DNA of 64,000 nt, taken from NCBI GenBank assembly GCA_902728285.1, contig CACVBU010000743.1, positions 1,268,357-1,332,356 on the forward strand, written 5' to 3'. Numbering within the stretch: position 1 is the stretch's first letter; the number at the start of each line of letters is the position of its first letter. Source of the stretch: Clytia hemisphaerica. Taxonomy: Eukaryota; Cnidaria; Hydrozoa; Leptothecata; Clytiidae. The notes beneath the pieces are model-generated. The model did not search any database and was not told the origin of the DNA. It saw only the letters and a program-made list of their open reading frames with translations. Below, piece by piece: positions 6,417 through 47,900 of the stretch. The translations under genes and the position numbers were made by a program.

Positions 6417-6745
6417 ATGTTTCAATTTTTCAAAAATACAGTTGCGCTAAAAAATAATTTAAAGATTCTCCAAATTTCATAAAAGTCTCTGGAAATCTAT
6501 CGAAACACTTTACAATTTGTTTTTGCAAGAAAGTTCTTTCAGCTCCCTGATTGAGCATGTGCTTGAAAAATTCTGAAATTCTGGGCAGAACATCTTCAAA
6601 AAGAGTGCATCTAGCAAAATGCGTAGGACCTCAGAAAATATAGAACTGTAAAAGATGATTGATGGTAAATTACTATCTTTATGTGGCATTCTCACAATGA
6701 AAAAGGGAAAGGCCAGGGGCGCTGAGACACCCCTGCAAAACATGC
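6417..6745 (-). pseudogene. Reverse-transcriptase C-terminal fragment, copy 1 (degraded)
   Basis: On the minus strand the sequence encodes a fragment with FPFFIVRMPHKDSNLPSI followed by a block ending in CPEFQNFSS. It is closely related in DNA sequence (same flank TTTCAATTTTTCAAAAA) to the longer copy at 35110-35600. The conserved FLDLD...LFDKRDAFPF section seen in that copy is missing here, and reading frames shift inside the block. The motif string is one I associate with reverse-transcriptase proteins of invertebrate retroelements, possibly Penelope-like. The element class is uncertain. It is truncated and not functional. Confidence 0.5.
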
Positions 6746-7159
6746 ACTCGCAGGGTATGCTCCGGAGTTTTTTTGTCGCAGCTTGTTTTTAGCCTACCCG
6801 GAGTTGTTTTTCCTAATCATTCGTTAGTGTCATTAGATTTATTTTACTGACTTAAAGTCCACAGTAAATATAAGAAAACTGTTTATCAAGTCGTCTCACA
6901 GGAAGCGTGAATTCGAGTCTGTATTTTAGGTTTTGTGTACAAAAGTGTTTTGCAGGCCTGCACCCTGCAAATTTTTGCAGAAAGACCTGGATGAGGTCAA
7001 AATGCAGGGTCTGCCCGGGATTTGATGGCTGTTAGTGTCAAAACGTTAAAAGTCAAGACTCGTCAAATGGCTTTAGATGCTTGGAGAACAAAAAACAAAA
7101 TATACAGTCCTGGTTTTATCTATTTTGTCGCAAATTCTGAAGAATTTGAAGCCTGCCCT
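6746..7159. other. No gene recognised
   Basis: Short open frame near 7022 without recognisable motifs. It runs into the AAGTATG cluster that follows and I do not support it as a gene. Confidence 0.45.
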
Positions 7160-7380
7160 TATGAAAAAATCCAGTATGCATCAAGTATGCACATATTTTC
7201 ATACTTGAAAACAAGTATGAAAGTTGAAGTATGCAAACAATAGATCAAGTATGCAAAGTACAATGCAAGTATGAGAGGGAATATTCATACTTGATTGATG
7301 TATGCAAGAAAGAGGCATACTCAAACCGAGTATGCATATAAAAGTACCATTAATCAATTAAGTATGAATGAAAATCTTCA
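7160..7380. repeat. AAGTATG/CATACTT motif cluster 2
   Basis: More than ten copies of AAGTATG or its complement in about 220 bp, many in the form CAAGTATGCA. Same word set as the clusters at 4540-4990 and 9040-9290. Confidence 0.6.
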
Positions 7381-20760: not shown

Positions 20761-21245
20761 AGATATATATGATTTATCAACATTTTGACATATGTTGTTT
20801 ATTTTAGATTTATATATAATATATGTCATGTACAAAATTTTTTGAAAATTTTCCTGGGTTTACAATTTGCATGAAATAAATAGAAAACTTTTGGTATATA
20901 ACATCTTCATTTTAAGAAGAAAGGTATTTGGCCATTCTTGGCATACATAATAACCAAAAATTATTTAATTAATAGAGAAAGAGAACAAAAGAGTTGTTAG
21001 GGCACAAAGATATTTTTCTAGCCGGAGATAGCTAAATTGTTAAAGGGTAGTTAAGAAAATTTATTTTTATTAATAAAATTTAAATTAAAAAATAATATCA
21101 AAGCCCTCCATCCACCTACCATAAAATGGTAGAAGAGCTATCTGGAGATGGAACTGTCATCCTATTTCTAAAACAGTTTTCAAGGAAAAAAATTGGTTCA
21201 GCAATCATGTGGAAATTCAATATTTAATTTCACCACACGTGTGTA
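20761..21245. other. Gene-free flank of the 12.2-kb transposon
   Basis: AT-rich, no coding signal. Ends in TA (21244-21245), the target dinucleotide of the element that follows. Confidence 0.5.
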
Positions 21246-21260
21246 CCCAGTGGGCACGAG
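21246..21260 (+). repeat. Left terminal inverted repeat of the 12.2-kb transposon
   Basis: CCCAGTGGGCACGAG, preceded by TA. It pairs with 33466-33480. Confidence 0.8.
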
Positions 21261-21489
21261 CTGTTTTCGAGTTGTCTGGTTCTAATCGTAATAAGATCAT
21301 GACTATGACATCAGCAGGATGTTTACAAGACGTCATATTATGGTCTTTTTAGCATCTTAATTGCAGACATCTGTTTTGGCGATATATATCGACGTCCGTC
21401 ACAACGTATTTAAATAAGGCGGATGGTTTTACGACACTGCTGAGATGTTGTCGAGACTTTTTTCAGAAATAGAACTTTTTATCACCCAT

Positions 21490-21641
21490 ACACGCTTTTT
21501 TTATAAGAATAGTGTACTTTGGCTGAGGGTGAGCGTTATTCTTATTTTTCTATTGTTCTCAACAATAGGGCTATCGCTCTAAACCCGAAATCTCACCCTG
21601 ATATTCTTATAGAAGTTATTCCTATAAAACAAAAAGCGTGT
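21490..21641. mobile_element. 152-bp MITE (ACACGCTTTTT ends)
   Basis: Begins ACACGCTTTTTTTATAAGAA and ends in a sequence whose reverse complement is ACACGCTTTTTGTTTTATAG. Inside there is a shorter inverted pair (TTATTCTTAT...ATATTCTTAT). A related single end occurs at 4450-4490. It lies in the left subterminal region of the large transposon, so it either inserted later or is part of its subterminal structure. Confidence 0.5.
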
Positions 21642-22291
21642 AGCCATTTTTGAGCCCGGGCAACGCTCAACTCCCGGACACCAAGAGAAATTTTGGCAAT
21701 TTTTCAGTTTACCATCCCACCGGACAATACACACTCTTGGGAGAAAGTTAAGGGGATTTATTTACATTGGACTTTATGTCATGCGAAATAGTTGATTTAT
21801 TTATCCCATTTTCTTTAATTTTAAAAAGGACTTTCCACGGAACAAAATAATAATACTACTCATACAAAGTCTAAAAGACGGCTGTTTTTAACAAATATGC
21901 AGTTTTTTCAGCAGAAAATAAGTATATTCTTAAAAAAATCTGACAGACCATTACTCTTCAGTGCCTAATTAAGGGAGGGTTCTTATTGTACTTTGTGACA
22001 AATTTCAACGGGTGGTGGGGGGGGGTTGAAAAAAATCTCAAAACTTAATAAACGGGGGGTTGGAATAAGAATGGCCTGGGTAGAAAACTGTTGAAAATTT
22101 AATTAGCGGGCTATTACGGTAGGTACCCAAGAGTTATATGGTCCCCCCATTTAACTAGCTTTTTTTTTCTCGGAGTGACAACCCTAAAATTAGGCAGAGA
22201 AATAGAAAAATGAAACCGTGATAAGGTCACGTGGTATTAATATAAAATTTACAAGGACCTGGAAAAACATTTAAAAAGATAGGTTACAAGT
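21642..22291. other. Non-coding left arm of the 12.2-kb transposon
   Basis: No open frame of interest. G-rich runs (GGTGGTGGGGGGGGGTTG) at 22010-22030. Holds the 3' untranslated side of the kinase gene. Confidence 0.5.
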
Positions 22292-24188
22292 CTAAACATT
22301 TAAAACATTTAATGCTCCCTCTATACTCAGCCTATCCGAGGGCTCTTGAGTTTTCATATGGCGACCAAGGTCAATCAATGGCTCGTACTTCAAAAGTGCA
22401 GCAGTGTGCTTAAACATATAGCCAATTGAGTATATGTCAGTCATTTGGGTTTGTTTAGCATTCTGTAGGTTGCGTAGCTCAAATGCCAAATGTCTGTGAT
22501 TTAAATTATATGAAACTTGACCTGATTTGTTCAGATTGTATATAACCGGACACTTCATCATGGTAGCTTTTCCCAAATCTATCAGGACAACACGATCATC
22601 ACAAACTACAACATTATCTGATTTGATGTCATTATGGAGTATTCCTTTAGAATGAAGGAACTGGACAGCCTTGAGCACTTCTGTGAAAATGTATTTCATC
22701 GAACTGACGTCAATTTTACGCAAGGTATTGAGCTTAGCTAAGGTTGGGTACGGAGAATATGTATCACCGTCAGTTTTGCCAAGAAACTCCATGAAAATAC
22801 ACTTTTGCTGATCTAATAAACCATAGCAAAATGGGAAATGCTGATTTCCTGATAATGTTAGTAGAGCTACAACTTCGGCAAGGAGACTTTTTTGAGATGT
22901 TTTCTCATCCAATACTTTTACAACAACGATTGTTTTAAGAGTATGAATTTTGGCCAGTTTTACTGAGCCAAACACACCAGCACCAATAGTACAATCCAAT
23001 GCTTCAAAATTATCTTTGGAAATTTTTGGTATTCCTTCTAGTTGTCGAATTACAAAATCTTTGGACGTTGTCACATTTAAATGATTTTTGTGGTGAGTTG
23101 CAATAACAGTTCTCGTAAAAAAAAGACGAAATTTTTGGTAGTTTTTTACGTTGAAGTTGGTGCAACCTTTCCTGTAACCTTTTGATAGTATCATCTTTTT
23201 TTATGAGTTCCAGTTTTGATTTCAACTTTGCTTTGTTAACTCTTTGTCGGACTTTAGTTTTTTGATTTTTCTTCTTTTTCCCAGCTTCACTTCTCTTGTG
23301 ACGATTTTTCCTACAAAATAAAATGAGAAATAAGGTAACAATTACAAAAAATTAATTCTGTCTTTCTTTGTGAAAGTGCTACCTTAAAAGGGAAGAAATT
23401 TTTGGAGAATTAAATTTTGCGATGTTAAATCGCAAAATTTAATTCCCGAAACAGGAATTTTCTCAGATTTTCAAAAATAGACCTTAAAATTAATGCACTC
23501 TTTTTGATTTTTTAAACTTTTCAAGACAGTGGCGCTCTGGACGGCACATCCTGTTTCCGGAATTAAATTTCACGATTTACAACTAACATTGCAAAATTCG
23601 ATTGCGTTCGACAATTGAATTTCAATCAGTCGATTGCGTTCGATTTGGTTTGATTGGTTCGATCATCGATTCCGTTCGATTGAGATCGTCTGGTAATAGG
23701 GTTCAGTTTATTTAAATACCTATGAATGGAACAGCTGGTGAAACGGACAAAAATCGATTATTGGATTATTGGAATCCCGGAAAATAATGAAAACATCACC
23801 CTTGAAAATGTGAATGGATCGGGGGTTCTGCTTTCTGCTTTCTGTTTCTCTTCAGCAGACTGAGTTGTGTGTGGCAGTGCAGTGGGTGAACTTAGCAACT
23901 TTTGCTATAACTAAACCCAAACCAAATAGAAATAGGCAGCTTTGTTATAATAGGCCGCTACACTAGCAGTTCCTGGGTATTTTTCTAACAAAACAAAGTG
24001 TTAGACACTGAAAGAACACTGAATGACTCTCTACACACACACACGCTATAAACCATATAAAGACCAAAGCAAAGCAAAGCAAAGACTTACCTAGCATGTA
24101 GTTTGTTTTGACAGTTCCCAAGAGATTCGTTCGGGAGTTCAATCTGGATTGGTAAATTATTGTTTGCTTTGGAACTCATTGTCTTCAT
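22292..24188 (-). CDS. Protein kinase with basic coiled-coil N-terminus, transposon-borne, frame-interrupted
   Basis: Serine/threonine-type kinase fold. Exon 1 is 24188-24091 (ATG at 24188 or in-frame 24179; donor GTAAGT). Exon 2 begins at 23310 after TTTTGTAG, and the split AGG codon rejoins in phase. Exon 2 first encodes a basic, probably nuclear-targeting stretch (KKKKNQK) and a coiled coil (KLELIKKDDTIKRLQERLHQ). The kinase domain is in another frame, open from 23194 to the stop at 22292. Numbered within that 300-codon frame it has glycine loop GAGVFGSV (71-78), Lys93, Glu107, catalytic loop HNDIKSDN (Asp189, Lys191, Asn194), DLG in place of DFG (Asp206) and Asp255 of helix F. All catalytic residues are present. 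Moving from the coiled-coil frame to the kinase frame needs removal of one base. An eight-base homopolymer at 23117-23124 is the simplest site. It is transcribed away from the transposase inside the same terminal repeats. Confidence 0.8.
23386..23700. repeat. Degraded MITE plus TTCGATT block (copy 2) in the kinase intron
   Basis: 23386-23460 resembles the AAGGGAAGAAATTTTCGCGG end and the AATTTAATT words of the 18-kb MITE. 23585-23700 is a TTCGATT-rich block ending TTCGATTGAGATCGTCTGG, the same family as 5340-5710. Both lie in intron 1 of the kinase gene. Confidence 0.5.
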
Positions 24189-25547
24189 TTTACAACAAAG
24201 TTGATTTTGATGGTAAATCAGCTTCAAATTAAATGCAAAAGACCAGTAACCGCAATTGTAACTGCTCTAAACCAGTATAAGCCACTGTTTTGACGGTACA
24301 AAATTAAAAATGGTGGTCGCAATATCGGACCGCACTTACTAAATCAAATTTCTATAAGAGCCATCCAATTCTATTTTGTGCGTGTGACCGCGTATGGATA
24401 ACTTAACGGTACCGAAAGCCGCACAGTTTCAAAATAAGGATTCCTGTGGTTATGTCTCCTCTTTCTTGTACATTCTGATTCTGTCAAGTGTCTAATTACT
24501 GAATTAATCCAATGTAATCTAATCGATATTACTATAAGTAACAAATCCTGTCAATGTCATGGTAACGTATGAAGAAAATTTTTTATGATGTTCAGGTTAT
24601 TTAGAGGGGTGATAGGAATAATTTTTCTGTTAAATTATATTTATCCAGTTTATCAGATTATCTCACTAGCAATCAGTGACTTTGGATTTGAAGTTTTTTT
24701 CTTTTAATTGAGCTATACATAGCATTTACAAGGTGTGTCCTGACCAGCATTATCTCTATGATAGTGTGAATTGACTCGACGTACAACTTTCTCTTTGAGA
24801 AAAGTTTGAATGATTGAATCAATCAAATGGTCGGACGCCTCCTTTGAACTGCTTGTATATTTTGGGCCAGTTTTCCAAGTTTTTAAAAAGTTATATTCAA
24901 GTCTTCTGTATATATTGCGGATAAATATTTTTTAATTCAGAAAGGTGTTTTTAAGTCAGTCAGTCGGGAGGGGAGGGAGAGGGGTTGAATGAAAAAAGTA
25001 CGTACTAAACCAAGGGGGATTAACCCATTTGTGTACGTTTGCGTACATGGAGGGAGGGGGTACTTGATTTCAACATTTTAGTGTGTACATACTTTGTGGA
25101 CGGCCTCCTGGTGCACAAGTAAATTCGGCCACCATAATTTTTGCATACAGTACAATATGCTGGATGGAATGGCAAAAAGGTCTATTGATTGTCTCTTCAG
25201 TTTTCTGGTTTTCAATTCTCAAATATACTTTAAAGGAGGAAACTTTTGCTGTTTTCACAAATTTTTGGCAAATCCGTGAAAGTTATTTCCACAAAAAGTT
25301 TTAAAAACTCGATTTGCGGAACTTTATCCTCGCCAAAAATATTTTGTTTAAGTCATAAAAGTTTCTAAAAATGTATTTTGAAGAGCAACTTTAGGGCAAG
25401 TTTGAGGCTCGTCAATTAAATTTGTGTAAACAAAGTAAAATATAAAGACATTTAGGTGTACAAAATTGGGCACACCCTTTCTATGTCTGTCTGTTTGTTA
25501 CTTTTTACTTTGTTTTTTCTCAAGAATAAAAAAGTTAATTATTAGAG
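24189..25547. promoter_or_regulatory. Divergent intergenic region between kinase and transposase
   Basis: 1.36 kb with no gene, separating two genes that start back-to-back inside one transposon, so it must contain the promoters of both. TATA-like AAAATATAAAG lies near 25438, about 110 bp before the transposase ATG. A truncated relative of the GGGGCCATCC-type MITEs (GTACGTAC near 24998, G-rich centre, GTACATACTTTGTGGACGGCC at its right end) lies at about 24969-25105. Confidence 0.45.
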
Positions 25548-27497
25548 ATGTCTGCTAATTATCAGAAAGAATGGCGGCTAAGAACCAGAATGGAAGAAGA
25601 ATTTTTGAGAGACTGTGAAGAGGAATTGACATGTAGTGATCTAAGTGGAGGTAGTTCTGAAAGTGAACATGATCCTAATTCAGGTGTCTCTCAAAATGAA
25701 CCAGATAACATATCATCCCTTGATGAAACTATTCCAACAGATGATGAAGACCCTAGGGAAGTAGGCAGTCAAGATTCCTCTAGTAGCAGTTCAGAAGAAG
25801 AGTTTGACTTTGATTTCCATGATGAACGCCCATTACTCAATGATAAACTTAGAGATTGGGCTTGTAAATTCAATTGTACACGTGGTGAAATAGGTGATTT
25901 GTTGACAATTTTGCGTGATTATGGTCACGAAGAACTTCCTAAAGACCCAAGAACACTTTTAAAGACACCAAGAGAAATAGCAACAGAGCAAAAGTGTGGT
26001 GGAAGGTATGTATATATTGGTATAAAGAGAGGAATATTGAGATGCTTGGAAGATTTTCCAGACTATAACTCAAATATGATTAAATTAACAGTGAACGCAG
26101 ATGGAATCCCTCTATTCAAGTCTTCAGCAGTCGATCTGTGGCCTATATTGGGAATGTTTGTTTATCCTCACCCATTTGTAATCTCCTTATATGTTGGAAC
26201 TGGTAAACCTAATGACCCTGAGGAATTCTTGGAAGATTTTCTAAATGAGTACCAAGATCTTAAAACAAATGGGATTGTAACCATTGATAATAGACATTTT
26301 GATTTTTCAATATGGTGTTTGACTTGTGATGCTCCAGCAAGACAGTTCATCAAATGTATTAAGGGTCATGGTGGTTACTATGCATGTGAGAGGTGCACCA
26401 TAAAAGGACAAAGGATAGACAACAGAACAGTTTTCCTTTCTATAAATGAGCCAGAAAGAAATGACGAGGAATTTAATCAGTTTTCTTATGAAGGAAGCCA
26501 CCAACACACCCCAAGTCCAATCATTGGCTCTGGAATAAAATGCATCAAAGATTTTCCTTTGGATTATATGCATCTTGTGTGCCTTGGTGTGGTCAAAAGA
26601 TTACTTCAATTTTTCAAAGATGGGCCTCGTTTGTGTCGTTTATCACAAGGTCAATTAGCACGCATATCTCAACAGTTGCAAAACTATAGAGGCAAAATGC
26701 CATCTGAATTTGCAAGGCAGCCGCGTGGACTTGACCAATTGAGCAGGTTCAAAGCTACTGAGTTCAGATCTTTCATTGCATACTATGGATGTGTTGTTTT
26801 GTCAGAAATACTTCCAGAGCCAGCCTACAAGCATTTTCTTTCCTTGGTATGTGCCATGAGAATTTTACTGGATGAAAATGATGCTCACCGAAATTATTAC
26901 TTGGATTTTGCTAAACAGCTGTTACAATTTTTCACTGATAACGCATTTACATTCTATACAAAGTCCTTTGTGGTCTACAACCCTCACAATTTGATTCATT
27001 TACCCGATGATTGTCGTAGGTTTAATGTTTGTCTTGACAAGTTATCATGTTTTCCGTTCGAGAACCACTTACAGATATTGAAAAAACTTGTTAGAAACGC
27101 AACCAACCCTTTAGTTTCTGTTGTCAAAAGAATCACAGAGCTTGAAAATGCTGGAATGAAAAAAATTTCTAAAGTAATTTTTACAAAAGTCTCAAAAAAT
27201 CCACGTGATAGCTGGTTTTTACTTGACAATGATGAAATCATTTGTGTTAAAGAAATTCAATCTAGTACCACTTTTCTTTGTGAGGTTTACACACGCAATG
27301 AGCTGGATGACTTTTTCACTGATCCACCATGTGATTCAAGTTTAGTTGGAATCTTCCTTTTGCCAAGAATCAGAATGAACAATCGTGAGAGACATATAGT
27401 CTATCGAGAACACATTAAACGTAAAGTATCATGCCTCAAAGTGGAAACAGGCAATGTTCTAATCACAGAACTTCATGATGTAAAGTTTGAAAACTGA
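25548..27497 (+). CDS. CACTA-like (Transposase_21-type) transposase, copy 2, single exon
   Basis: 649-residue uninterrupted frame. It is the mobilising enzyme of the 12.2-kb element: a DDE transposase expected to cut at the CCCAGTGG termini in the nucleus. The N-terminus (about 16-95) is acidic and Ser-rich. A conserved block VNADGIPLFKSSAVDLWPI (about 183-201) precedes CDAPAR (Asp261). A small CERC zinc-ligand-like pair follows, then DYMHLVCLGVVKRLL (Asp339). Further on, PHNLIHLPDD and FPFENHLQ (Glu505) give the likely third acidic residue. Assigning these as the DDE triad is inference from their conservation in the copy at 465-2923. The ATG at 25548 is the first in the open frame. It lies 212 bp upstream of the DUF4806-type gene start, in the same orientation. 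I see no disabling mutation, in contrast to the kinase. Confidence 0.85.
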   Translation: MSANYQKEWRLRTRMEEEFLRDCEEELTCSDLSGGSSESEHDPNSGVSQNEPDNISSLDETIPTDDEDPREVGSQDSSSSSSEEEFDFDFHDERPLLNDKLRDWACKFNCTRGEIGDLLTILRDYGHEELPKDPRTLLKTPREIATEQKCGGRYVYIGIKRGILRCLEDFPDYNSNMIKLTVNADGIPLFKSSAVDLWPILGMFVYPHPFVISLYVGTGKPNDPEEFLEDFLNEYQDLKTNGIVTIDNRHFDFSIWCLTCDAPARQFIKCIKGHGGYYACERCTIKGQRIDNRTVFLSINEPERNDEEFNQFSYEGSHQHTPSPIIGSGIKCIKDFPLDYMHLVCLGVVKRLLQFFKDGPRLCRLSQGQLARISQQLQNYRGKMPSEFARQPRGLDQLSRFKATEFRSFIAYYGCVVLSEILPEPAYKHFLSLVCAMRILLDENDAHRNYYLDFAKQLLQFFTDNAFTFYTKSFVVYNPHNLIHLPDDCRRFNVCLDKLSCFPFENHLQILKKLVRNATNPLVSVVKRITELENAGMKKISKVIFTKVSKNPRDSWFLLDNDEIICVKEIQSSTTFLCEVYTRNELDDFFTDPPCDSSLVGIFLLPRIRMNNRERHIVYREHIKRKVSCLKVETGNVLITELHDVKFEN

Positions 27498-27708
27498 TTC
27501 ATAAGTATTTGTTTAATTTGTTTGTATTGTTTTGTTAAAGACAAGGCTACACTCTGCTACACTACACATTTTTCCTTAAGTTGATGATCAGTTTCAGAGC
27601 TAGTTTGCTAAGCTGATTTACTTTCACATACCATGAATCTTGTTTTTTTCTGATAATATTTTTACTTTTTGTCATCAAAAACATTGAAGATAAAAACAAT
27701 AGAAAAAC
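27498..27708. other. Short spacer between transposase and DUF4806-type gene
   Basis: 211 bp of AT-rich sequence. No clear polyadenylation signal, so the two genes might share a transcript or the second might have its own promoter here. Confidence 0.4.
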
Positions 27709-30700
27709 ATGAATTCAGATAACAATAATCACTCTGGCAAATATGCTTGTGTTGTTTGCATTGAGGACAATGGAGAGGAGTCTCAGATAGTAGTTCCATC
27801 AGCTTGGGTTGACGAAGAAAATAAAATAGTACACTGGTCAACTTCTTTAAATGCAAGAAGAGAATTTGAAACTTGTGCCAATCCATCAAACAAGTGGCCA
27901 ACATATCACCTTGTAAAAACTATTTTTATTGGGGGTAAGTAACTTTTTTTTTCCTATAACGTAGTAATCAAACAAATCAATAGTAAATGATGCTCAATCC
28001 TTGCTTGCGTTTCTCTAGTTGAAGTTCTCTAACATTATTGAAGAATGCAACAAGTTTGAAGTTCTGCCAAATGTTGCCCAATTGTGTACTATAAGATTTT
28101 TTGATATTCCTTTAGAACATAGCCTTTGCAAACAGGTGTGGGAGGAGTATAGCACCAGCACCACAGAAGAATCACCAATAAAGCAGCAAAAGCAAAAATC
28201 TCCTGAAAAAAGAAGCCAGTAAGTTTTCAGTCATTATTTTCAGAAAAAAAAATCCTTCAGGTCTGATAATGATCTATTAACTTAACATTGGTCTGTCAAG
28301 ATATCACAAGCTATTTAAGTAATTTTAGTCATTCTCTTTTCCAGCAAAATTGTATCCCAAGCCACCACCAAGGAGAAACACTCGCAACGACAATGCTAAT
28401 AATTCAGCAATGAATAAATCTGAGTCTGAAAGTAAATCTGGTAAGTATCTTACGAGAAGACATTTTGGTGGTAATTGAATTTGATGGATGGCCTCAGAAA
28501 TCAATTTGGCAGATCAGCAACAAAATTAAATTTGATTTGGTGGACAATAGATTTAAAATTTCCAAGTCAAGTTGACAATGTTGAAAACACACTCCATTAG
28601 GGCCTAAATCGTCACAAGTTAGCTTATTTCTATTTTCTATCATTATCAACCTCTTTTCAGCAAACCCCAGTCCACAGTCATCTAGGAGAAATACCCACAG
28701 TGACAATTCTGATTACTCGCCAGTACGAAAGAAGCCAGATTCTAAAAGTAGATCTGGTAAGTATTATATTAGTTTTTGGAATGAAAACTTTTCATTTAAT
28801 AAAGGAATTTTTCTCTTAAAAGTGTCAAATAAACCAATAATTATAACTTTTTCTACCTAAACATCACAAGTCAGCTTAGTTCTATTTTTTATCAACCTCT
28901 TTTCAGCAAACCCCAGTCCACAGTCAACATCTAGGAAGAAATACCCACAGTGACGATTCTGATTGCTCGCCAGTCCGAAAGAAGCCAGATTCTGAAAGTA
29001 GATCTGGTAAGTGTTATATCACTTGGAATGAAACCTTTTCATTTTAAGGAAATTTTTTCTTAAAGTGTCAAATAAACCAATGATTAAACTTTTTACCATT
29101 ACCATCTAACTTTTTTTATAACTTTTTCTACCTAAACATCACAAGTCAGCTTATTTCTATTTTTTATCAACCTCTTTTCAGCAAACCCCAGTCCACAGTC
29201 ATCTAGAAGAAATACCCACAGTGACGATTCTGATTACTCGCCAGTACGAAAGAAGCCAGATTCTAAAAGTAGATCTGGTAAGTATTATATCACTTGGAAT
29301 GAAACCTTTTCATTTAGTAAAGGAATTTTTTTCTTAAAAGTGTCAAATAAACCAATGATTATAACTTTTTCTACCATCTACCATCTAACTTTTTTACATA
29401 TAACTTTTTCTACCTAAACATCACAAGTCAGCTTATTTCTATTTTCTATCAACCCTTTTTCAGCAAACCCCAGTCCACAGTCAAAATCTAGGAGGAATAC
29501 CCACAGTGATATAACTTTGTTTACCCAAACATCACAAGCTACCTATTTTCTTTTTTATCATTTTCTTCAGCAAGATCTCGATCAGTATCAGCAACAAGAA
29601 AAAGGATTATGCCTGACAACAATATTGATGATTCGCCAGTCAGAAAGAAACCTGACTCTGAAAGTAGATTATGTAAGTTTTAACTTTAACATTGGTTCAA
29701 TCTTTGTTGAAATCTTGGCAGTATATTTTGCCAAGCCCTGTTATGATGGAAAAAATTGTGAAATTGCAGAATTGTAGAGGGTTATTTTATTGCATTAAGG
29801 TGCATTTGGAATCATGATAATAAATTCCGTAATATAATTGTGTTTTCAGGCAACAATACTCTAAATAAGGAAATATATCAGAAACAATTGTCTACAACTC
29901 GACCTCGCCCAGTACCACAACATTCAGCGTATGGTTGTGAATCGGATGAAACGAACAAATCTCTTTTAGATGACCATCAATGTGAGTCATATGACTTTTG
30001 CTCTATTCTTTGCCGTCTATATATATAAATTGCCAAAAAACAAGAAAACAAAACCTTCCAACAATCTCTTCAGTGAACCCCTGTTTTCATCCTTATCCCC
30101 ATGCAAGATAAAATATGTTTAATTACTAAATTGAATCAATGTGTGCACTCCTGGTTTTACATTTGGCCCTTACAAATTCTTAAAACTTACGCTATTTTTT
30201 AAAACAATACTGCTTCGACAATAGAAACTGTTTGAATAATGAATTGCTTCACGAGGTGTATTACAAGGTTAATTAACTTGAAGGTTCGAGAGTGTTTCTA
30301 CATATCCAATCCTGTTTGATTATTTCAGTCTATTACAGTAACAATTCGCATACTTATCGCTAGTAGTATAAAAATTGTATTTATTATTTTCAGCTGGATA
30401 CAAAAAATCGAAATCTTCCTGCCAGAAAGTCCAAAAACGTACTCATTCCCCAATGTCAAATTTTATTGACTTCGTGAGTTCACCTAGAAGATCTCCAAGA
30501 TTGAAGCAAAATGTATCAAGAGCTCGAAAATCACTCGGCTTTGACTCGCGTCACCAATCTCGAGGTGTGTTTGATATTCTGTGTTGTCCAAACCCTTTGT
30601 CTTTTAGTCAGATACTTAAAAAGCAAAAATATATTCTATATTATGACAACTAAGAGAGAACAACTTACTCTTTTGTGCTTAATTATAGGGGGTGGGTACT

Positions 30701-32893
30701 TGGAGAAAAATCAATAAAATGGAGGGTCATTATAAACTGATATTGAGCGATTTTCCCCCAAAACCCCTTCACTAATCTATGTTTTACTTCTTCAGAAAAA
30801 GAGGGGACACAGGAAAGACCATCTTCCTCCAAAAATAAGGATCAATACCCTCTTTCTGAAGCAGGTAATCTTTGTTTATGAACTTTATACGTTATACTTA
30901 TGGTTGTCATCTAAAGTATGTCTATAAACAACCTGGCTACTTTATTTTTCCTTTATTTAAGTCTCCTTTCCCACCATTAGACTTGCTACGTTGAATTTTG
31001 CAACAACCTACATTTCTTGATTATTTTTATTGGGAGCCTCAGAAGGGGAGGACTTGAGGCTCAAGTATTGTTAACATATGTCTGTTTTTTAATCAATTAT
31101 TTTCTCCTTTTCCTCCTATTTCCCCTGTTTTTACGGGAAACTGAATGTAAAAAATGACGTTCTACTTCTACTTCATTAATTTTTCAGCCTTCCAACGTAA
31201 AATGGTGAAACTTCTTTTGGATATTAAGTCTGAGATAAGAAAAAATAATCGTCAGCATGCTGAAAACCTTTACAATAGAGGGGCCCCTGCCAAGTGCACC
31301 ACAATTGAACAATTGCTCCAGTTTGAAAAGAAACTCGACAACCAAGAAGAATATAATAAGTTGGTACGTACTTTAATATCAGTTTTGCAAATTTTATGTT
31401 TCTAGACAGAGATGCCTCCACAAAAATTGGAATACCATACAATTCTTGCCTAATTGTAGGGAGAAGGGTTAGCAAACACGACATGTCGTGAAAATTAACT
31501 TCCACTTTGCTCTTGTAGTGAAAATACCAAATCAACGTAGAGCGTGAGGCGGGGCAAAGCCGACATAGTACCTTGCTTTTTCGTAGTAATATTTTTTGTT
31601 CACTAGAAGGTCCTCTTTCAAATGAACCAAAAGTTTTTTTGATTTTGACGATTTTTTGAATTGGATCTGTCTCGTGTAATAGCTCTTCAAATATTGATTT
31701 TCGGATATATTTTTTGTAATCCTCATGTTAAAACCTTTCTTTTAAGCCATATTTGAGCTCTTAATTTTCACTTTCATTTTCAAGCCCCAGCAAAAGTGAT
31801 GACATCACATGGGGACTAGTCAAATTCTCAAAACCCAGTTCACCATAACTTTTTGTGACCTTACGGACCCAAATGATCATTTAAAAAAATTAGTTTGCTT
31901 CTAACAAGCCTGTGCACACGAAGGATGTTTTTGGAACAAAGTGGCTCTCACTAAATGGATTAGTCCATCTTTTTTGGCAAACTTATCCAATTGGGTACTT
32001 CCCATTTCTTTTAGATTGATTTGTTTATGACTGTTGGTGGGAAAGATCTTCGGCTTGTTATCAGGAGGATGCTGCAGTTGTAAGTAACATTACATTACAC
32101 CTTTTACACTTCATCAGATTCTTGGAAATACCGGAACAAGGGATTTCCTGTTATTCACATTTCTTGATTGTTTTTATTGAATGAACTTAACCTAGCTTAC
32201 CGTGATTTGGAGCCTTAGAAGTGGAAGGGTTAGAGTGTTAAGCATTTTTGACATTTTATTTTTATTTTTATTAAAGGATCACCACGAATGAAGTATTATC
32301 CTGTATAAATTGGGATGGAAACGGAGACAAAATCTCCTTTAACAAAAAGCTAAAGAACATCTTCCAAGCTCTTGTGGGTAAGCTCCTTCATATATTTATT
32401 TCCACAAATTTAACTTGACTTGCCTCCGGATATAAAAACTTTACACCCTCCTGGAAAACGGAAAAAGTTCGCAATTTTTTCAGTATACCTTGTATAAAAT
32501 ATATCCTCCACTCCGTACAAGAATTTTTTCAGTTGCCTTATGGGAACTAATTTACGTTCGCGTTACGAGGGTCTAGTATAATACGCGGACTAATCTTCGT
32601 GCACGACACCCACTTTTGACCGAAATTCTTTAATTTTTTATGAATTTTTCAATTTTTTTTAGTTCCCTTGAAGTAACCAAAATTTGTGCATAATGAAAGA
32701 TTTCTGGTAATTTGTTAAATGTATACCTAATACTTTGAAGCTGTTCTTGTTCTTAACCTTAGCTTGTGCAAGCCAGAAATTCAGAACGACACAAGAAGAT
32801 GTGAAGACCAAACTTCAACTGGTGTTGAAAGATGCACCCGATCGTGAAGGAGGCCTTCGTTGGGCGGAAAAACAAAGGAGAAAGAGTTCCTAG
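27709..32893 (+). CDS. DUF4806-type protein gene, about 15 exons, transposon-borne
   Basis: Exons by consensus and phase: 27709-27912 (or to 27934), 28019-28218, 28345-28440, 28661-28756, 28907-29006, 29182-29277, 29464-29509, 29571-29672, 29850-29981, 30394-30564, 30796-30864, 31188-31363, 32015-32079, 32277-32377 and 32763-32893 (TAG), with AATAAA near 32907. The first exon encodes an N-terminal module ending near NKWPTYHL; exon 2 has EVLPNVAQLCTIRFFDIPLE. The middle is a disordered, repeated Ser/Arg/Lys region. The C-terminal four exons (TTIEQLLQFEKKL, TVGGKDLRLVIRRMLQ, NEVLSCINWDGNG) match the DUF4806 pattern as I know it. The molecular role is unknown; it is probably the second protein of the transposon. 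With the 27912 donor the first join is in phase; the strong-looking GTAAGT donor at 27935 would not be. The 28218 to 28345 join appears one base out of phase. Confidence 0.7.
28661..29510 (+). repeat. Tandemly duplicated exon-intron unit in the DUF4806-type gene
   Basis: A unit of about 250-280 bp, with the exon CAAACCCCAGTCCACAGTCA... and its flanking intron, is repeated four times: exons at 28661-28756, 28907-29006, 29182-29277 and 29464-29509. Exons 1 and 3 are 96 bp and phase 1-1. Exon 2 is 100 bp (a 3-bp and a 1-bp insertion), which would shift the frame. Exon 4 runs into intron sequence after about 46 bp with no donor. The exons at 28345-28440 and 29571-29672 are older relatives. The encoded module is about 32 residues with NPSPQSSRRNTHSD and SPVRKKPDSKSRS. 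Confidence 0.8.
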
Positions 32894-33465
32894 CTTATTA
32901 TAATGAAATAAAAGTGTATAGAAGAAAATGAAATTCATTCTTTTCATACCCTACCTACCTACTATTAAGAAATTAGAACAATTTATCGAGGAAAAAAATT
33001 CGTGCTTGAAAATTATAACCTACATATAAGTAAGTTACCGCCAAAATTTCTTTTTTTTTCACCATCCGCCAAAATGAATACCCGTAAAAATTAATTTTTC
33101 TCAAGTGTTGCTCGATTTTTCACTGTGTATTTTGGTCATAAAAGGAGGTTTTCTTAACATTTTCACCTTAAAACCCATCGTCCGCCAAATTAAATTGCCT
33201 CTTAAAAATCTTTTTGAGCCATCAGCCAAAATTTCTTCCAATAAAGCACGTCGGATCATTCAACTGTAAGACATCTCTTCAACGTCGTGTAGGCTGTATT
33301 TTACTGATTCCACTCCAATAAATGATATCTGCATGGACATCTCGCGAGACATCCTTCAACCTGACCTCTCACAAATAGCTTCAATGAGACGTCTAAAAAG
33401 ATTTTCATTTCCCGACATCTTCAAGACGCCTGGCCAGGCGTCTGATCGGATGTCCAACAAGACAT
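32894..33465. other. Right non-coding arm of the 12.2-kb transposon
   Basis: 33000-33250 holds scattered CCGCCAAAAT words that look like a degraded MITE. 33330-33465 has the GACATCTCGCGAGACATCC, GAGACGTC and CAAGACGCCTGGCCAGGCG words that mirror the left subterminal repeats. Confidence 0.5.
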
Positions 33466-33480
33466 CTCGTGTCCACTGGG
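33466..33480 (-). repeat. Right terminal inverted repeat of the 12.2-kb transposon
   Basis: CTCGTGTCCACTGGG, followed by TA at 33481-33482. One mismatch against the left end. Confidence 0.8.
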
Positions 33481-35109
33481 TAATCACCCTTGCAATGTTC
33501 TTTTTCCAATGTTTGAAACAAATAACGAAAGCTATATACAACATTGACAAGCTTACGTAATCATCCATGACGAGAGAAATCGATTACATCACGCAGAGTA
33601 ACTTTCTTATCTGAAGTCACAGTTAAAACATTAGTGTCAGTACGTCTCAGTACGTCTACTTTGTACTTGTGTGTCGTTTGGTGTTTCGTTTTCACTTTCA
33701 CGTCCTTTGTCATAGTCAATGTCAAGGTTAAAAAGAAAGGAAGGGCCAGAAAGCCACTTATCTTGAAAAAGAGCAACAAAATCCTCAAAGGTCTAGTAGG
33801 AGCATCGGCTGGATTGTTAGTACCAGGAACATGAAACCAAGACTCCCGCCAGGAACAACTTTCCTTATCTTAACAACTGTTTTCCACCCAAGTCTCTTTT
33901 ATACTCTTCATAGTTTGTATCCAGAGGTTTGTCAGGGGTTTGTCCAATATCATTCAATTCTCCTCAATCAGACGTAAAACCATAGGCTGGAAAAAAGATC
34001 GTTTGTAATAATTGATTATATCAATTATGGGCTCCCCTGGCATTGTGTAAATGAATTGGATATCGCTTGGTTCTGATAATCGTCAGTTTATTAAGCGAGA
34101 GGAGTGCAATTAATCGTTAATTGCAGTTAGTGGGCAGGGAGGGGACAATTTTCCCCTCTTTATTATTCCTTTCTCTCCCACGCCCATGTAAAGCAATTCA
34201 ATGCAGAGACTTCTTAACTACTATAACAAAAGAGTCAATTTCTATTACAAAGTGCGTCAGGCAGGTATTACAAAGTGCATTAAGCTCCTTGAAAAGCTCT
34301 TGACATCTCCAGAAATATCTTCCTATCAGTCACACTTGACCTTTTAAAATGGAATTATTATATAGCCAAGTGGCACCAAATGAAATGAAGCAAAAGATGA
34401 CAAATTTATCCCTTAATTAAATCAACACTTTACCTTTTTCATTCGTGCAAAAGGGACAGCTAATTCCATTTTTTATCATTCTCAGACGATCAGGAGTTGT
34501 TGGATATCCTTCAATCTTTCAAGAAATATATTGAGAATTCCGGTTATTTTGACGTTTTTCGAGATTTAAAGTTCGGGCGAAAAATCCGATTTTGGGCTAT
34601 CTCTTTAATTTAATCGAATATTTCAATTTGAGACAGGTAGGCAGACTTCCAGGCTATAATCGGAGCCTTACTGGACCATTTTTGAACTTTTGTCTTAAGT
34701 CTAGCGTTAAAACTCAGAGTTAAAACTCTACCCTTCGAACCTACTTTAGAGCACTTACAAATCGATTGTGGTTTCGAAACTTCCTGGGGAATTTCCCATG
34801 TCTCAAATATTTCTTGAAGGATTGTTGCTGCAATATATCTTCGTGGACTTTATCTATAAAATGCACCATTTTTGTTACTTTCGTTTTCTTATTACCACCT
34901 GCGATGGAGTCACTATTATTAACCGGAGTTGAACAAAAGACTATACGATGTCTTACTCTGGTTCCACGGGGCTATTCGGAGTTCAACTCCGTATGGAATT
35001 TCACTCCGGTTGGAACAATACAAGTATCAATACAGATCAATAAACACAAATTTTCAAAAAGTAGGCCCAGAACCCGGTTCGACACCTAAAGTCCGTGCAG
35101 CCGTCTGAA
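33481..35109. other. Gene-free stretch
   Basis: Overlapping short frames on both strands (33356-33834) have no recognisable motif. Around 34920-35005 several GGAGTT/AACTCC pairs could form small hairpins. Nothing else recognised. Confidence 0.45.
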
Positions 35110-41900: not shown

Positions 41901-44900
41901 TATTTTTTCAATGTATTTGGTGCTCTCGACTGAGTAATAAGATTGGGAATCATAGTAACAATATCTTTTAAGTTCTGGTCCTGAACATCAAATTGAGATT
42001 GTATTCCTCGAGACAGTATCGTGTCTAAATAAAACAATAACATTCTCACTGAGATTAGTCTTTCTCTATCCTCAAGACATAAATTGGGTTATCGTAATGT
42101 TCACTCCCCAATAAAGAATGCTTAAATTCTCCTAAAAGGAACAATTTTGAGCTAGATGAAAAGAATTTGTAATCTTTAATAAAATCCTTGAAATTTTGAT
42201 TATAATCTACTAGAAAAGGCCAAAATACAGCAGATGGCCAATACGGTACAATAAGAACACCCTTTACGGGTCCTTTACAAGCTAAAAAATGCTTAACACA
42301 TTTCGCTATCAGATATGTTGGGGGAACCATTAGACAAACTTCGCCTGACCAGTCAAAAGAGAATGCATCAACCCTCATAGTTCCTGGGCACCAATACTTT
42401 GAACAAAAACGTTGACATTTCGCATTTTTATTATCTGCAAAAAGGTCTAGAGAGAATGGGCCCCACTTCTTTTGAATGTATTCAAAAAACTCTGATGATA
42501 TAACCCAATCATCGTAATCTATACTTTTACTAATTTCGTCCGATAGGCTATTTAAGTCCCTAGAGATCCAAGTGACTTTAAGCTTTATCCCTTTTTCTCT
42601 ACAAAATTCATATATGCTAGTAGCGAGTTGTTGTAGATTAAGTTTATTGCTCCCAACTCTTACAATAATAGCGGCACTAAAATGATCTGTGTGCCACAAC
42701 AAGTTTCTGCCTTTTATAAGCACATCAAAAGATTGAATAGCATGTAGAATAGCCAATAGCTCCCTGAAGGTAGAATTTTCACTCTTCTCCTCGAAATTCA
42801 AATTGCGATAGCAAATGTGTTGTTGAAATATGGCTCCTATTCCCGTGCTACTTGCGTCTGAGTATACTTTTACAAAAGGAACTTCGTATTTGATAATGGG
42901 TCTATTGTTTAGTTCTCTAACATTCAGTTTCCAAAAAAGCAACTCATGAATAACATTGTGTAAAGATAAGATACTGAATTTTCTATCCCATGAGACTCTG
43001 CTTTCAATTGCTTTGTATAAAAAACGTGTTTTTAACCTTACAATCGCTCCCAAAACGAACTTTGTTGAAATAATCTTTCCAGCAAAACAAGCGAGTAATC
43101 TAGCTGTCACATTCTTTGGAGAGTCAAGAATATCGTTTATGGATGCGAGAATAGAAGAGATACGGTGCTCTGTGATCGAGTAAGTTTTCTTTGTGAAGTC
43201 TAAAATAATACCCAACCATTCCATAGAAGTAGACGGTTCCCACTGAGATTTCTCAGTATTAGCTATGAATCCTGATGAATTTAAAGACTTTTTGACAAAA
43301 TCCGAGTTTTCTTTAGCCCTTTCGTCTGAATATTCTATCCCCATACCATCGTCTAGGAAACAAGCAATTTTTATAGAAAAAGATCTCCAATATTTAACGA
43401 GAACTCTAACCACTTTCGTGAAAATAAAGGGAGCCGAAGTTAAACCAAAAGGGAGGACTGTGTATTGAAAATACTTTTTTGAGCCGTCCTTGAATGTCCA
43501 AGAAAATCCAAGAAATTTTTGAAAACTTTTGTGAATATCTATATGAAAATAACCGCTCTTCAGATCGAATTTGAATAGATATGCCTCTGAATCCGAATCT
43601 ATAAAATCTTCAAATATTTTCCAGTCGTCAAATTTGATCTTTTCTTTCCAAACAATTCATTGAGATAGCTCAAGTCTAAAATTAGTCTCTTTTTGCCTCT
43701 TGAATTGTATGCTACAGATAAAGGGCTCGTACAGTAAGGCTTGTCTCTGTTGTCTACTTCACAAACAAAGTCATTTCTAATTAGATCAAGAATAGATTCT
43801 TCAACAAATTCGTTTTCGGCTAAAGCTTTTTTGTTGTTTTTCATGTCATAAGAAGGAGGCATGTATCTAAATGGTATACAATAACCAAATTTGATAATAT
43901 TGAGAATAAATTCGTTAGCTTTCAAAGTGGATTTCCAAAAGTGTGAATGCCTCTTTAAACTACCCTTAACCTTTAACTTAGGTTGAGAAATATTAACATC
44001 TTCCATACCTTTCCTATTAGGGCACGAATGTCTCCAATGGCCAATCTGACCGCACTCGAAGCAACCATTGACGGGATGTATTGGATTCTGCAAAGATACG
44101 ATTCTTGGAGAGGTTGCTTGCTGTGGAATAAAAAATCGTGGTCGTTGAAACGATGGAGGTACCTGATTGAAATTCTGTTGGAATGATGGCACCCGATTTT
44201 GCTGAAAAGGCTGCAACTGAAGTTGTTGACGATATTGATGTGTACGAGTTGTGTTTGACCTGGACTGCTGCTTCTTTTTCTGCAACGCTCTACTCTCGGC
44301 TTGACGGATACGTTTATCGTCATCGCTATCAGATGCTAGTTCGTCCTGTACGTATTCATCTACAGTGGCCCAACCGCCCGGAGATTTATCTGCAATACGG
44401 ATTACTTTCTGACGTTTTGAGATTTTCTCTTCGATGTCTTCTAGACGACTGGCCAACCTTTTCTTCGAACCAGCTGCAGAAAGGTCCCTGGCTTCGTCAA
44501 TTGACTCTCTGATATCTTCCAAGAAATTATAATTTAGCCTGTTGTTTTTGTATTTAAAAAGAATCTCTGATTTTGCCTTCTTTCCTTTACTGGAAAGTTG
44601 GATGTCCATTTTCCTTTTGATATCCTGTGTATCCTCTATCAGAGAAATTAAATTTTGTTGAAAAGCACCAATCTGAGCCCAAGGATTCTGTGAAGGATCA
44701 AAAGCAGGGATAAAAGTGTGATCACCTGTTTCACTTGTGGTGCTTGTGTCCTCTGTGTTTGTAGACATCTCTAAAAGAGGGTTTTTCGACTTCTGGCCCT
44801 TCTTTGTTTTCTTTGGAGGACGGTTCTCGTCTGCCATGATTCTGGTTCTGCTCATCAAGTTGCTAGAAGTTACTTGTTTGAGGCTAAGTTCGACGTGTGA

Positions 44901-47900
44901 TTAAAACTATTTTTGGCTACCCTTTTGATTAGCACGCGAAACTCTTGAAATCTGAATAGTTTACGGAACGCTCATTTTGGTCAAAGTCTACATTTTTCAA
45001 AACGCCTCAACTAATTTACGGAACGCCAACTCTTTCGGCAAAACAATTTTCTCTCAAACCGTAAATAAATTCATAAAGACACCTAGTATTGCATAGATTT
45101 TTAAAAATATAACCTGTGGTTGCAAAGTGAAAGATTTGCTGAGAAATTGTTATTGACAATAAGCGCACAAGATCTGTACCTTAATAAGTGGATTAATTTT
45201 GGCGTGGATTTACTTTGGCAATTGGGCAAAATGCGATTTTTGGTGAGGATTTAATTTGGCGAATGATGAATTTTGTAAAATTTTGCAGGATTTAATTTGG
45301 CTAATGTGAGATATGGTTAAATTTGGCGAAAGGCACAAAAACATTTTTTTTATTCATGCGTTATAATGTGTTATAGTATCAGAACAGAAAAAAATGTATA
45401 TACATAACATAAGATGGCTAAATAAAGGTAAAAATAGGTTACTAAAATGTACTTACATACGTAAGATCCTGCTAAATGGAAGTAAAATTATTTTGGATAA
45501 AATTTATATACCCAACACGAGATCGGCTAAATAAAGTCTCAAAAAATCGTTGTTTTTAAAAAAAATGTTTGCGTGGATTTAATTTGGCGAATGGGAGATT
45601 TTGATAGATTTAGCTTGGGTTTAATTTGGTGAATGACCGATTTTTAAAATTTTGGCGAGGATTTGATTTGGCAAATTTTTGCAAAATTCGCGAAATTCGC
45701 CAAATTTAATCCACGCCTGTCCACGCCAAAATTAATCTACTTAATTAAGTAATTGTTTTTTATCTTTTTGTTTTCTCTTAGGTCACGCTTGACAACATTC
45801 ACCACTTTACAAAAGAAGATTTCTTAAACATGTGTTTGCCGTTGGGAGATTATTATTTATTGCATAGGAAGTTTTGTCAAAAGCAAAATGAACATGACAG
45901 AAAAGAGATTCTCACCAATTTGGTGAAAAATGTCCGAAGAGATCGATCTTCAAAAAATGTCAAGCATAAATCTGCCCCATCCTCCTGCAAATGGTACAAC
46001 TACGATCCTAAGAAGGATAGATACTGCATGGTTCGTAGTGAGACAGGTGGTGGTGTACATAGTAAATCCATCCCACTCAGTGAAGATCTCCAAGAGATAA
46101 CTGCAAAATTGAAAAACTTTTTCTTCCCCGGGGGAGTTAATTCCAAAGATGAGCATCTCGACTATTTCGGATGGTCTGTTGCCGACCAACAACTAAACGA
46201 AATTAAAGATCCAATTGACACTGAGAATTCTGTTAAATTCACAGTGGAAAATTTTTTGAAAATGAAATTTTGGCAAAAACCAGTATTTGTACTGAAAACA
46301 AAGAAACTCTCTTCTCAACAATTTATACTCAGAAAATATCACAATAATAGAAAGAATAACGTTGATGACAGTGACTCATCAGGATCTGATTTCGAAATTC
46401 CAAAGAAAAAGCCAAAAGATCAAAGGATTCAAAAAACACAACTGAAAGAAGCAACACCACCCACACCTCCATCATTGTTAAACAATCTTAATTGTCCATC
46501 ATCGTCACAACCGCAACAGCCACCAGCATCAATTCCTGGAGGGTCATCAGAAATTCGATTCCAACAAGACTTGGAATATCTTGATAGTCTGAAGCAGGAC
46601 CAACTGAAAGAAATGGTAAGTTTTCCAAAACTGTAAAAAAAAAGTTGTTCTGCTCTAAGGATAAGCAGTGTCAAAATGCCTTTTTTTTATATTTGACATT
46701 CATTTTCTCACCTGTTGTCTTACCTACCTTAAAAATGAATTTTTTTCCACACCCCCTGTGTATTTGGTATCCAAGAGTACAATTTTCAATCAAGCTCCTT
46801 CTTTACATTTTTTCTGAAACTACTTTGGACGTAAATTGACATCTTTTCACCCACAAGCGTAGTTTGACAGGTTGCTAAAATAAAGGCAATCTTTGCACAG
46901 ATGGGGCCATTCAAGAAGTACGTTCGTTGCTGAGGGGGGAGGGGGTCAGCCAGAAAGCAAACAAAAACGAACAGGGGGAGGGGGGTCAAGTTCGTCAAGT
47001 GTATGTACGCTTTTGAAGAGGTGAGGGGGTCTAGCTTCAATCTTAATTTTATCGTAAACAATTCTTTCTTTTCTTTACTGATTGCATTTTTTATATAAAT
47101 CACAGAGCTGACTAGACCATAATTGTTATAATGGGCGTTCTCTTATCTATTATCAAATGTAACAAAAAACTCTTTGAAGTCATATTGTTTAATTTTCCAA
47201 CAATTATCTTCAAGACAATTTTATAAACTCAAAATTCATTATCATTTTAATAAGTGTAAAATTAAACCTTCAAAATTGGAGGGGGATCAGAAATCTAAGA
47301 TTAAAAACGAACTTACTGAGGGGGGGGGGGTACTTTGAAACAAACGCCGACGAACAGAGGGGGGAGGGGGTCTAAAAATAGGTGAAAATGGACGAACGTA
47401 CTTTTTGAACGGCCCCATGACAGAATAAAAGTTAGATTATAAGTCAGATGGATTTTTCTCTAATGTTTGTATTTTTATTTTTCTCGATGTTTAAAGACAT
47501 GTGTCTGCCAATTACCCTGTCCCCTAGTTGGCCCATCCACTATAGTTATTCATGAGACAAATCTCAAATCTTATTGATAGTAAACTTTTGCCTTTTTTCA
47601 TTTTAGAATGCAATCAAGGAGAAAATGCAGAGTGAAACAGAGTCTCTCAGAACCTCAATCGAATCATTGCGAAAGAAAGAAAAAGAAAGAGAAGCTCGGC
47701 AACAAAATCTTCTACTCGAACCAGAAGACTCGGAAGATTTCATTATGGTTTCTGTGATGCACATTGTACTTGGGAAAATTCAACGAAAATTTCCTTTAAA
47801 TTGTCAATTAAGACATGTTTATGATTGGATAGGCTCTTTAGACTAGGTTAACTTTTATCTTAGTTTACCTATGCAGTTGAATTCACCGCTTCCAAAAGCA

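Follow-up and report, generated by a model that had tools for sequence, protein, structure and literature searches.

A CMCT-group DNA transposon of Clytia hemisphaerica and a predicted protein kinase gene carried by one clade of its family

In the usual description, a DNA transposon encodes its transposase and sometimes a helper; a kinase, such as the one predicted in the 12.2-kb element at positions 21,246 to 33,480 of a 64,000-nucleotide stretch of the Clytia hemisphaerica genome (contig CACVBU010000743.1; hereafter the window), extends that picture. The closest described systems belong to the CMCT group (CACTA/EnSpm-Mirage-Chapaev-Transib), whose transposases carry the signature D-D-C(2)C-H(3-4)H-E, whose target-site duplications measure 2 to 5 bp and whose termini are in most cases 5'-CA..TG-3' (PMC12730594). 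Within this group, CACTA/EnSpm elements combine terminal inverted repeats (TIRs), a DDE transposase whose second D and E enclose C(2)C and H(3-4)H, and a second protein of unknown function, and canonical CACTA elements have TIRs that begin with CACTA and a 3-bp duplication (PMC4158355 and, for the general features, PMC12730594). PMC12730594 also describes two fungal comparators: ESTA, an EnSpm-like type with TA duplications that may carry an accessory TET/JBP enzyme, and IS3EU, in which an alpha-kinase gene lies opposite in orientation to the transposase; TET/JBP enzymes are there reported to have passed among unrelated fungal transposons. In the literature searched, with its limited coverage of journals, we recognised no conventional kinase in an animal transposon; the suggestion of the initial annotation of this locus that the system is undescribed stands to that extent, but the alpha-kinase of IS3EU (PMC12730594) is a precedent.

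From left to right, the window element (locus C517) consists of a TIR with GACRYC words, a kinase gene (-), a transposase gene (+), a third gene (gene 3, +), a right subterminal region and the second TIR; the kinase gene faces outward, its stop lying about 1.0 kb from the left end. The features, including open reading frames (ORFs), are as follows.

21244..21245, no strand: target-site duplication TA, left copy (one TA in empty sites)
21246..21260, +: left TIR, on the kinase side (15 exact genome copies, reversed control 0)
21246..21495, no strand: left subterminal region with GACGTC-like words (4 GACRYC words per 250 bp, against 0.19 per 250 bp in the interior)
22292..23200, -: predicted protein kinase domain ORF (Pfam Pkinase E 1.6e-19), directed outward to the left end, with DLG in this copy
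23010..23351, -: ORF with the basic coiled-coil exon of the kinase gene, with a likely splice acceptor before it
25539..27497, +: CMCT-type transposase, open ORF, with D188, D264, C283/C286, H483/H487 and E508
27703..32895, +: gene 3, with its first conserved exon at 27703-27939 and duplicated Ser-rich exons at about 28640-29690
about 31151-31402, 32024-32080, 32275-32385 and 32711-32895, +: DUF4806-like exons of gene 3 (limits approximate, set by eye)
33231..33480, no strand: right subterminal region (9 GACRYC words per 250 bp)
33466..33480, -: right TIR, with one mismatch
33481..33482, no strand: target-site duplication TA, right copy (one TA in empty sites)

The window element is a real cut-and-paste DNA transposon. 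Its 15-bp TIRs are inverted-complementary at 14 of 15 bases, and the TA directly outside both ends constitutes a 2-bp target-site duplication. When 120 bp from each flank were joined on a single TA, the resulting 240-bp query matched six other genomic places over all 240 positions, at equal length and 98% identity, while a seventh match covers positions 26-240 only; the three of the six that were read agree with it base for base at 236, 236 and 235 of the 240 positions and have one TA where the flanks meet. Because the empty sites show a single TA, the insertion is exactly 21246-33480 with a duplicated TA. The element sits inside repeated sequence, and a flanking ORF at 33561-33869 is, we presume from its motifs, retroelement-like. 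A second complete element, C832:2163183-2177111 (13,929 bp), has perfect 15-bp TIRs and a TT duplication; the query made by joining its flanks has three matches that span its whole length at 97-99%, one of equal length and two 1 base shorter (matches that were not read). GACRYC words are concentrated at the ends of both elements, with 4 (left) and 9 (right) in the outer 250 bp of the window element and 9 and 8 in those of C832, where the interior holds 0.32 per 250 bp. The initial annotation had reported the one-mismatch repeats, the TA outside them, the placement of the three genes and the shared GACGTC-like words, and had proposed looking for single-TA empty sites and further TIR-bounded copies; all of these were borne out, with the empty sites fixing the boundaries, but the TA that it gave for the target site does not apply to every relative, insertion at TA alone being rejected by the TT of C832.

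The transposase and the ends define the type of element. The seven signature residues listed above conform to the CMCT signature; they are invariant in an alignment of 22 rows and at least 95% conserved in one of 27 rows. An AlphaFold2 model from the 22-row alignment (mean predicted local distance difference test score, pLDDT, 82.9; residues 28-95 of low confidence) puts D188 after a strand at 180-186, D264 after a strand at 253-261 and E508 in a helix at 505-518, a strand-strand-helix arrangement of D, D and E. The transposase profile gave no meaningful match against PDB sequences. The duplication, at 2 bp in both complete elements, is within the range of the group, and the ends, CCCAG..CTGGG, depart from the 5'-CA..TG-3' form. 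The transposase had been called CACTA-like, which is accurate for the signature, the TIRs, the second ORF downstream (gene 3, in the window and in related elements) and a weak match of DUF4218 to 11 of 22 window-type transposases (best E 4e-4); a canonical CACTA element is rejected, the ends being CCCAG rather than CACTA and the duplication 2 bp rather than 3 in two elements, and the kinase gene is extra. ESTA shares the 2-bp duplication, the CMCT signature and the possible accessory enzyme, but the window family has TT besides TA and a kinase rather than a dioxygenase, and the likeness is drawn from the published description of ESTA. IS3EU shares a kinase gene opposite to the transposase and accessory genes common to unrelated transposons (there TET/JBP), but it is a fungal type of another superfamily with 6-bp duplications and an alpha-kinase (PMC12730594), whereas the window element has a 2-bp duplication and a conventional Pkinase domain and thus lacks the combination that marks IS3EU membership. 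The window element is, in sum, a CMCT-group cut-and-paste transposon but not a canonical CACTA element.

The exact left TIR 15-mer occurs at 15 places in the 417-Mb, 951-contig assembly, and the same pattern reversed at none. A kinase match lies within 2.5 kb inward at six of these (C517, C39, the left end of C832, C613, C170:141002 and C843); one further place is the right end of C832, one belongs to a deletion derivative, and C464 looks like a right-type end. C240, C473 and C566, read for 1.5 kb each way, have no kinase match close by; C781, C797 and C894 are outside the set whose sequence was read. Positions 141002 and 150864 of C170 do not delimit one element, since both are left-type ends. 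The copy whose left end is at C170:150864 is internally deleted: it matches element positions 1-693 at 93.9% identity and then 6458-7266 (809 bp) at 99.3%, with a gene-3 exon identical at the protein level, and this similarity suggests that the family moved fairly recently. The deletion junction removes kinase and transposase, a pattern as expected of a non-autonomous copy. The region C170:141002-156305 appears nested, with this internally deleted window-type copy apparently inside a C843-like kinase-bearing element.

The element kinase shares with conventional kinases (Pfam PF00069) the glycine loop, Lys, Glu, HxD, Asn and DFG, but has HND in place of HRD, the usual motif of conventional kinases, a YN..H.HLA.ELRN stretch after DFG and an N-terminal basic coiled coil. 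Across 29 aligned rows (30 ORFs from loci L009-L038, the best 30 matches, with the short L015 dropped), the Lys is present in 28/28, the Glu in 27/28, the HND Asp in 28/29, the Asn in 28/29 and the DFG Asp in 29/29; with its Pkinase domain and this set of residues, the protein is a predicted member of the protein kinase superfamily. All catalytic residues had been reported for the window copy, and they are indeed present, but the DFG motif is DLG in this copy, and, by comparison with C39 and C832, its coiled-coil exon and kinase domain are out of frame with each other owing to an additional base in a T-run (about 23117-23130 by our own count), where an assembly error is possible. The kinase ORFs of C832, C250 and C843 are open, and that of C170 is in three pieces with stops. 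Many of the longer copies share the N-terminal basic coiled-coil exon, preceded by a T-rich stretch and AG at the 14 loci examined by eye, and an AlphaFold2 model of the C832 kinase (21-row alignment, mean pLDDT 80.8) has a long N-terminal helix at 23-69 followed by a kinase-like order of strands and helices. Against sequences of solved structures, the best among 60 listed of 173 matches are weak and general (MELK, CK2, PAK4, RIPK1). Genome-wide, the kinase has at least 109 matches with the window query and at least 110 with a lineage-B query (lineages A and B are defined below), both lower bounds, as the searches score best candidates only.

Other kinase subfamilies (C254/C770, C332/C928 and others) are likewise multicopy with aligned flanks. 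The C254 and C770 copies (L032/L033) are 98% identical over 3.45 kb including flanks, with similarity that ends abruptly, and would mark a further kinase carrier that has recently moved or been duplicated. A short coiled-coil exon lies downstream of several of these other subfamilies on the same strand (L018:2965-3213, L019 and L027, both in flipped orientation, L023:3045-3335 and L017:2976-3440) and is possibly the start of another element gene.

Kinase genes recur beside window-type transposases at a fixed place. The 71 transposase matches in the genome were merged by hand into 66 loci, and a second transposase query (69 matches) recovers largely the same set. A kinase lies within 12 kb at seven of the 66 (C517, C832, C613, C608, C250, C170 and C843), divergent from the transposase at all seven, where about 0.5 kinases would be expected by chance within 16 kb in any orientation, given 93 merged kinase loci; two more pairs, at C508 and C613:90968, are 13-16 kb apart and oriented otherwise, and the kinase nearest to C613:90968 is that of a neighbouring element. 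Absence of the kinase from other copies had been named in advance as a finding that would speak against the proposed unit, and the outcome is mixed, with a division by relatedness: 7 of the 15 loci with at least 50% identity to the window transposase have a kinase within 12 kb, as against 0 of the 51 below it (Fisher p 8e-6), and the internally deleted copy has lost both genes. The 50% line was drawn after the data had been seen, most of the eight kinase-free close loci are fragments, and the p-value overstates independence because the seven linked loci represent about four lineages. The predicted co-occurrence of kinase, transposase and third gene was also found, other copies having the three genes with order and orientation unchanged; C832 keeps the window gene order at 65% identity in the kinase, 68% in the transposase and 42-58% in the gene-3 exon pieces. 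Judged by this linkage, the predicted kinase is an add-on of one clade of the transposon family.

In a maximum-likelihood tree of the 29 kinase rows, lineage A (C517, C39, C832, C613, C628 and C608) falls in one clade (98/95), with C628 and C39 assigned to it by kinase similarity, and C39 also by its TIR, rather than by a linked transposase. Lineage B (C250, C843), about 31% identical to lineage A, groups with C677, C327 and C797 within another clade (100/100). A single clade for A and B is rejected (log-likelihood difference 84, p of the approximately unbiased test 6e-50), with the qualifications that the program warned of long branches and that the grouping was set by linkage and kinase similarity after the first tree, so that the p-value is not from a blind test. 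Six kinase-bearing transposases form one clade in a transposase tree of 29 rows (Shimodaira-Hasegawa-like approximate likelihood ratio support 99), and their sister is C480, from a contig that lacks kinase matches; the C608 transposase fragment is outside this tree. With two kinase clades in one transposase clade, the kinases could have been acquired twice, replaced or swapped once at the same place, or kept differentially from two old paralogues. Between C517 and C832, kinase and transposase have diverged similarly (dN, the nonsynonymous divergence, 0.236 and 0.224), with dS, its synonymous counterpart, saturated.

Gene 3 has a wider distribution than the kinase. Its first conserved exon has 17 genome-wide matches, of which 14 follow a transposase match on their own strand at a distance of 0.2-6 kb (compared by eye), one is in the C170 deletion derivative, and two (C321, C500) are without a listed transposase. 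Some of the 14 linked transposases (C480, C720, C195 and C760) are on contigs where the kinase has no match, and because gene 3 thus also follows kinase-free transposases, it would be the older companion and helper, with the kinase a later addition. The initial annotation had typed gene 3 as DUF4806. Hand-stitched C-terminal exons do match Pfam PF16064 (DUF4806) in the window (E 1.2e-4, 22.7 bits) and in C832 (E 3.2e-4, 21.4 bits), but both scores are below the Pfam curated cut-off of 25 bits, and we call the gene DUF4806-like; a six-frame genome search for DUF4806 found no match anywhere, its controls being silent too. For Hydra, a table in PMC7642931 shows DUF4806 genes to be numerous.

A second possible kinase carrier lies at C797, where the kinase is preceded, upstream on the same strand, by a gene (L079:1653-3836, -) that is transposase-like in motifs and copy number. 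This gene has no Pfam match in a search up to E 1 (best 0.18, to an unrelated family), no detected similarity to window-type transposases and no meaningful match among PDB sequences; a C-terminal piece of it in L030 matches a zinc knuckle weakly (E 0.008). Its 300-aa exon has 95 genome matches, merged by hand into 73 loci, at four of which (C797, C327, C675 and C25) a kinase lies 3.1-3.7 kb downstream on the same strand, against 0.05 expected. Other pairs of this gene with a kinase within 16 kb (C113, C677, C522 and C850) have a different arrangement.

We put at about one in two the probability of the following reading, which is built from sequence comparison. The core of the element would be a DDE transposase with a spliced DUF4806-like helper gene read in the same direction, to which one clade has added an outward-facing conventional kinase gene near the left end; the coiled-coil kinase made from the element would benefit it by phosphorylating some host factor by which transposition or the expression of the element is limited, with chromatin, small-RNA silencing, repair or cell-cycle machinery as candidate targets. 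Different elements might then use interchangeable members of one kinase family, in the manner of TET/JBP in fungal transposons. Two observations lead us to favour a host target over the transposase of the element: related kinases are found with transposases of unrelated types, and a lineage tolerates a kinase of only about 31% identity. A wider proposal, which we advance tentatively, is that in this genome unrelated types of DNA transposon share one family of coiled-coil kinases as an accessory module. They would have captured or exchanged its members repeatedly because these disable or redirect a common host control on transposition, and the family would be the kinase counterpart of the fungal TET/JBP enzymes. 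Several observations weigh against the host-factor reading. The seven linked loci, from about four lineages, are not independent; both frames are open in only C832 and C250 among them, the C517 kinase being frameshifted with DLG, and either the kinase or the transposase of C170, C613, C608 and C843 being fragmentary or interrupted by stops; and C39 reads HNG, with the catalytic Asp lost. Among the 19 kinase and 9 transposase pairs compared, the ratio dN/dS of recent kinase pairs spans 0.20-1.47 (0.27-1.30 for recent transposase pairs). Differential retention of old paralogues could account for the two kinase clades, the gene of the second carrier is a putative transposase, judged by motifs and copy number, and promiscuity is the one argument for a host target.

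It is also conceivable, at rather lower odds, that the kinase is a direct regulator of transposition, with either the transposase, at its acidic and Ser-rich N-terminus, or the Ser-rich product of gene 3 as its substrate. In its first 100 residues the transposase ORF has 30 Asp/Glu, 21 Ser/Thr and 11 S/T-x-x-D/E sites, and residues 28-95 of the model are of low confidence; gene 3 has duplicated Ser-rich exons; and kinase and transposase diverge alike within lineage A. Yet related transposases have no kinase nearby, the lineage B kinase is so distant, the same kinase family stands beside an unrelated transposase-like gene, and acidic Ser-rich tails would presumably suit host CK2 as well. We consider it unlikely that transposons have repeatedly picked up members of a large kinase family as neutral or host-serving cargo without a role in transposition; the size of the family, with many members tied to no element here, and the broken kinases of several copies agree with cargo, but neutral cargo would not be expected to keep a fixed place and outward orientation at 7/7 linked loci, to belong to two clades within one transposase clade, to be linked to a second carrier or to conserve its catalytic residues. 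Least probable by far is that the kinase genes are mobile units of their own, inserting recurrently near transposon ends so that the linkage is an insertion preference: near-identical subfamilies with shared flanks, such as C254/C770, would fit, but all seven linked kinases face the same way, the lineage A kinases follow the transposase branching as far as both are sampled, and no repeats bounding the kinase alone were recognised, although no dedicated search for them was made.

A conserved kinase at one place in one clade, two kinase lineages and a second transposase-like link suggest selection for transposon signalling, and element-encoded control of host or transposase phosphorylation becomes testable. 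'Expanded kinase families' in genome annotations may, by the same token, include transposon passengers.

Elsewhere in the window, a 406-aa ORF at 1703-2923 (+) has a DCMHNTLLGV motif resembling, by eye, another transposase type, and a basic, Ser-rich ORF of 284 aa lies at 45782-46636 (+); neither has a Pfam match at E 0.1. Retroelement ORFs occupy 42055-44900 (-); the one at 42055-43656 matches models of a reverse transcriptase (RVT_1, E 6.9e-20), of RNase H and of a Dam methyltransferase (E 1.6e-8). An open frame of 2249 aa at 51587-58336 (+), with OTU, DUF6570 and PIF1 helicase matches, is what we take to be a Helitron-like element.

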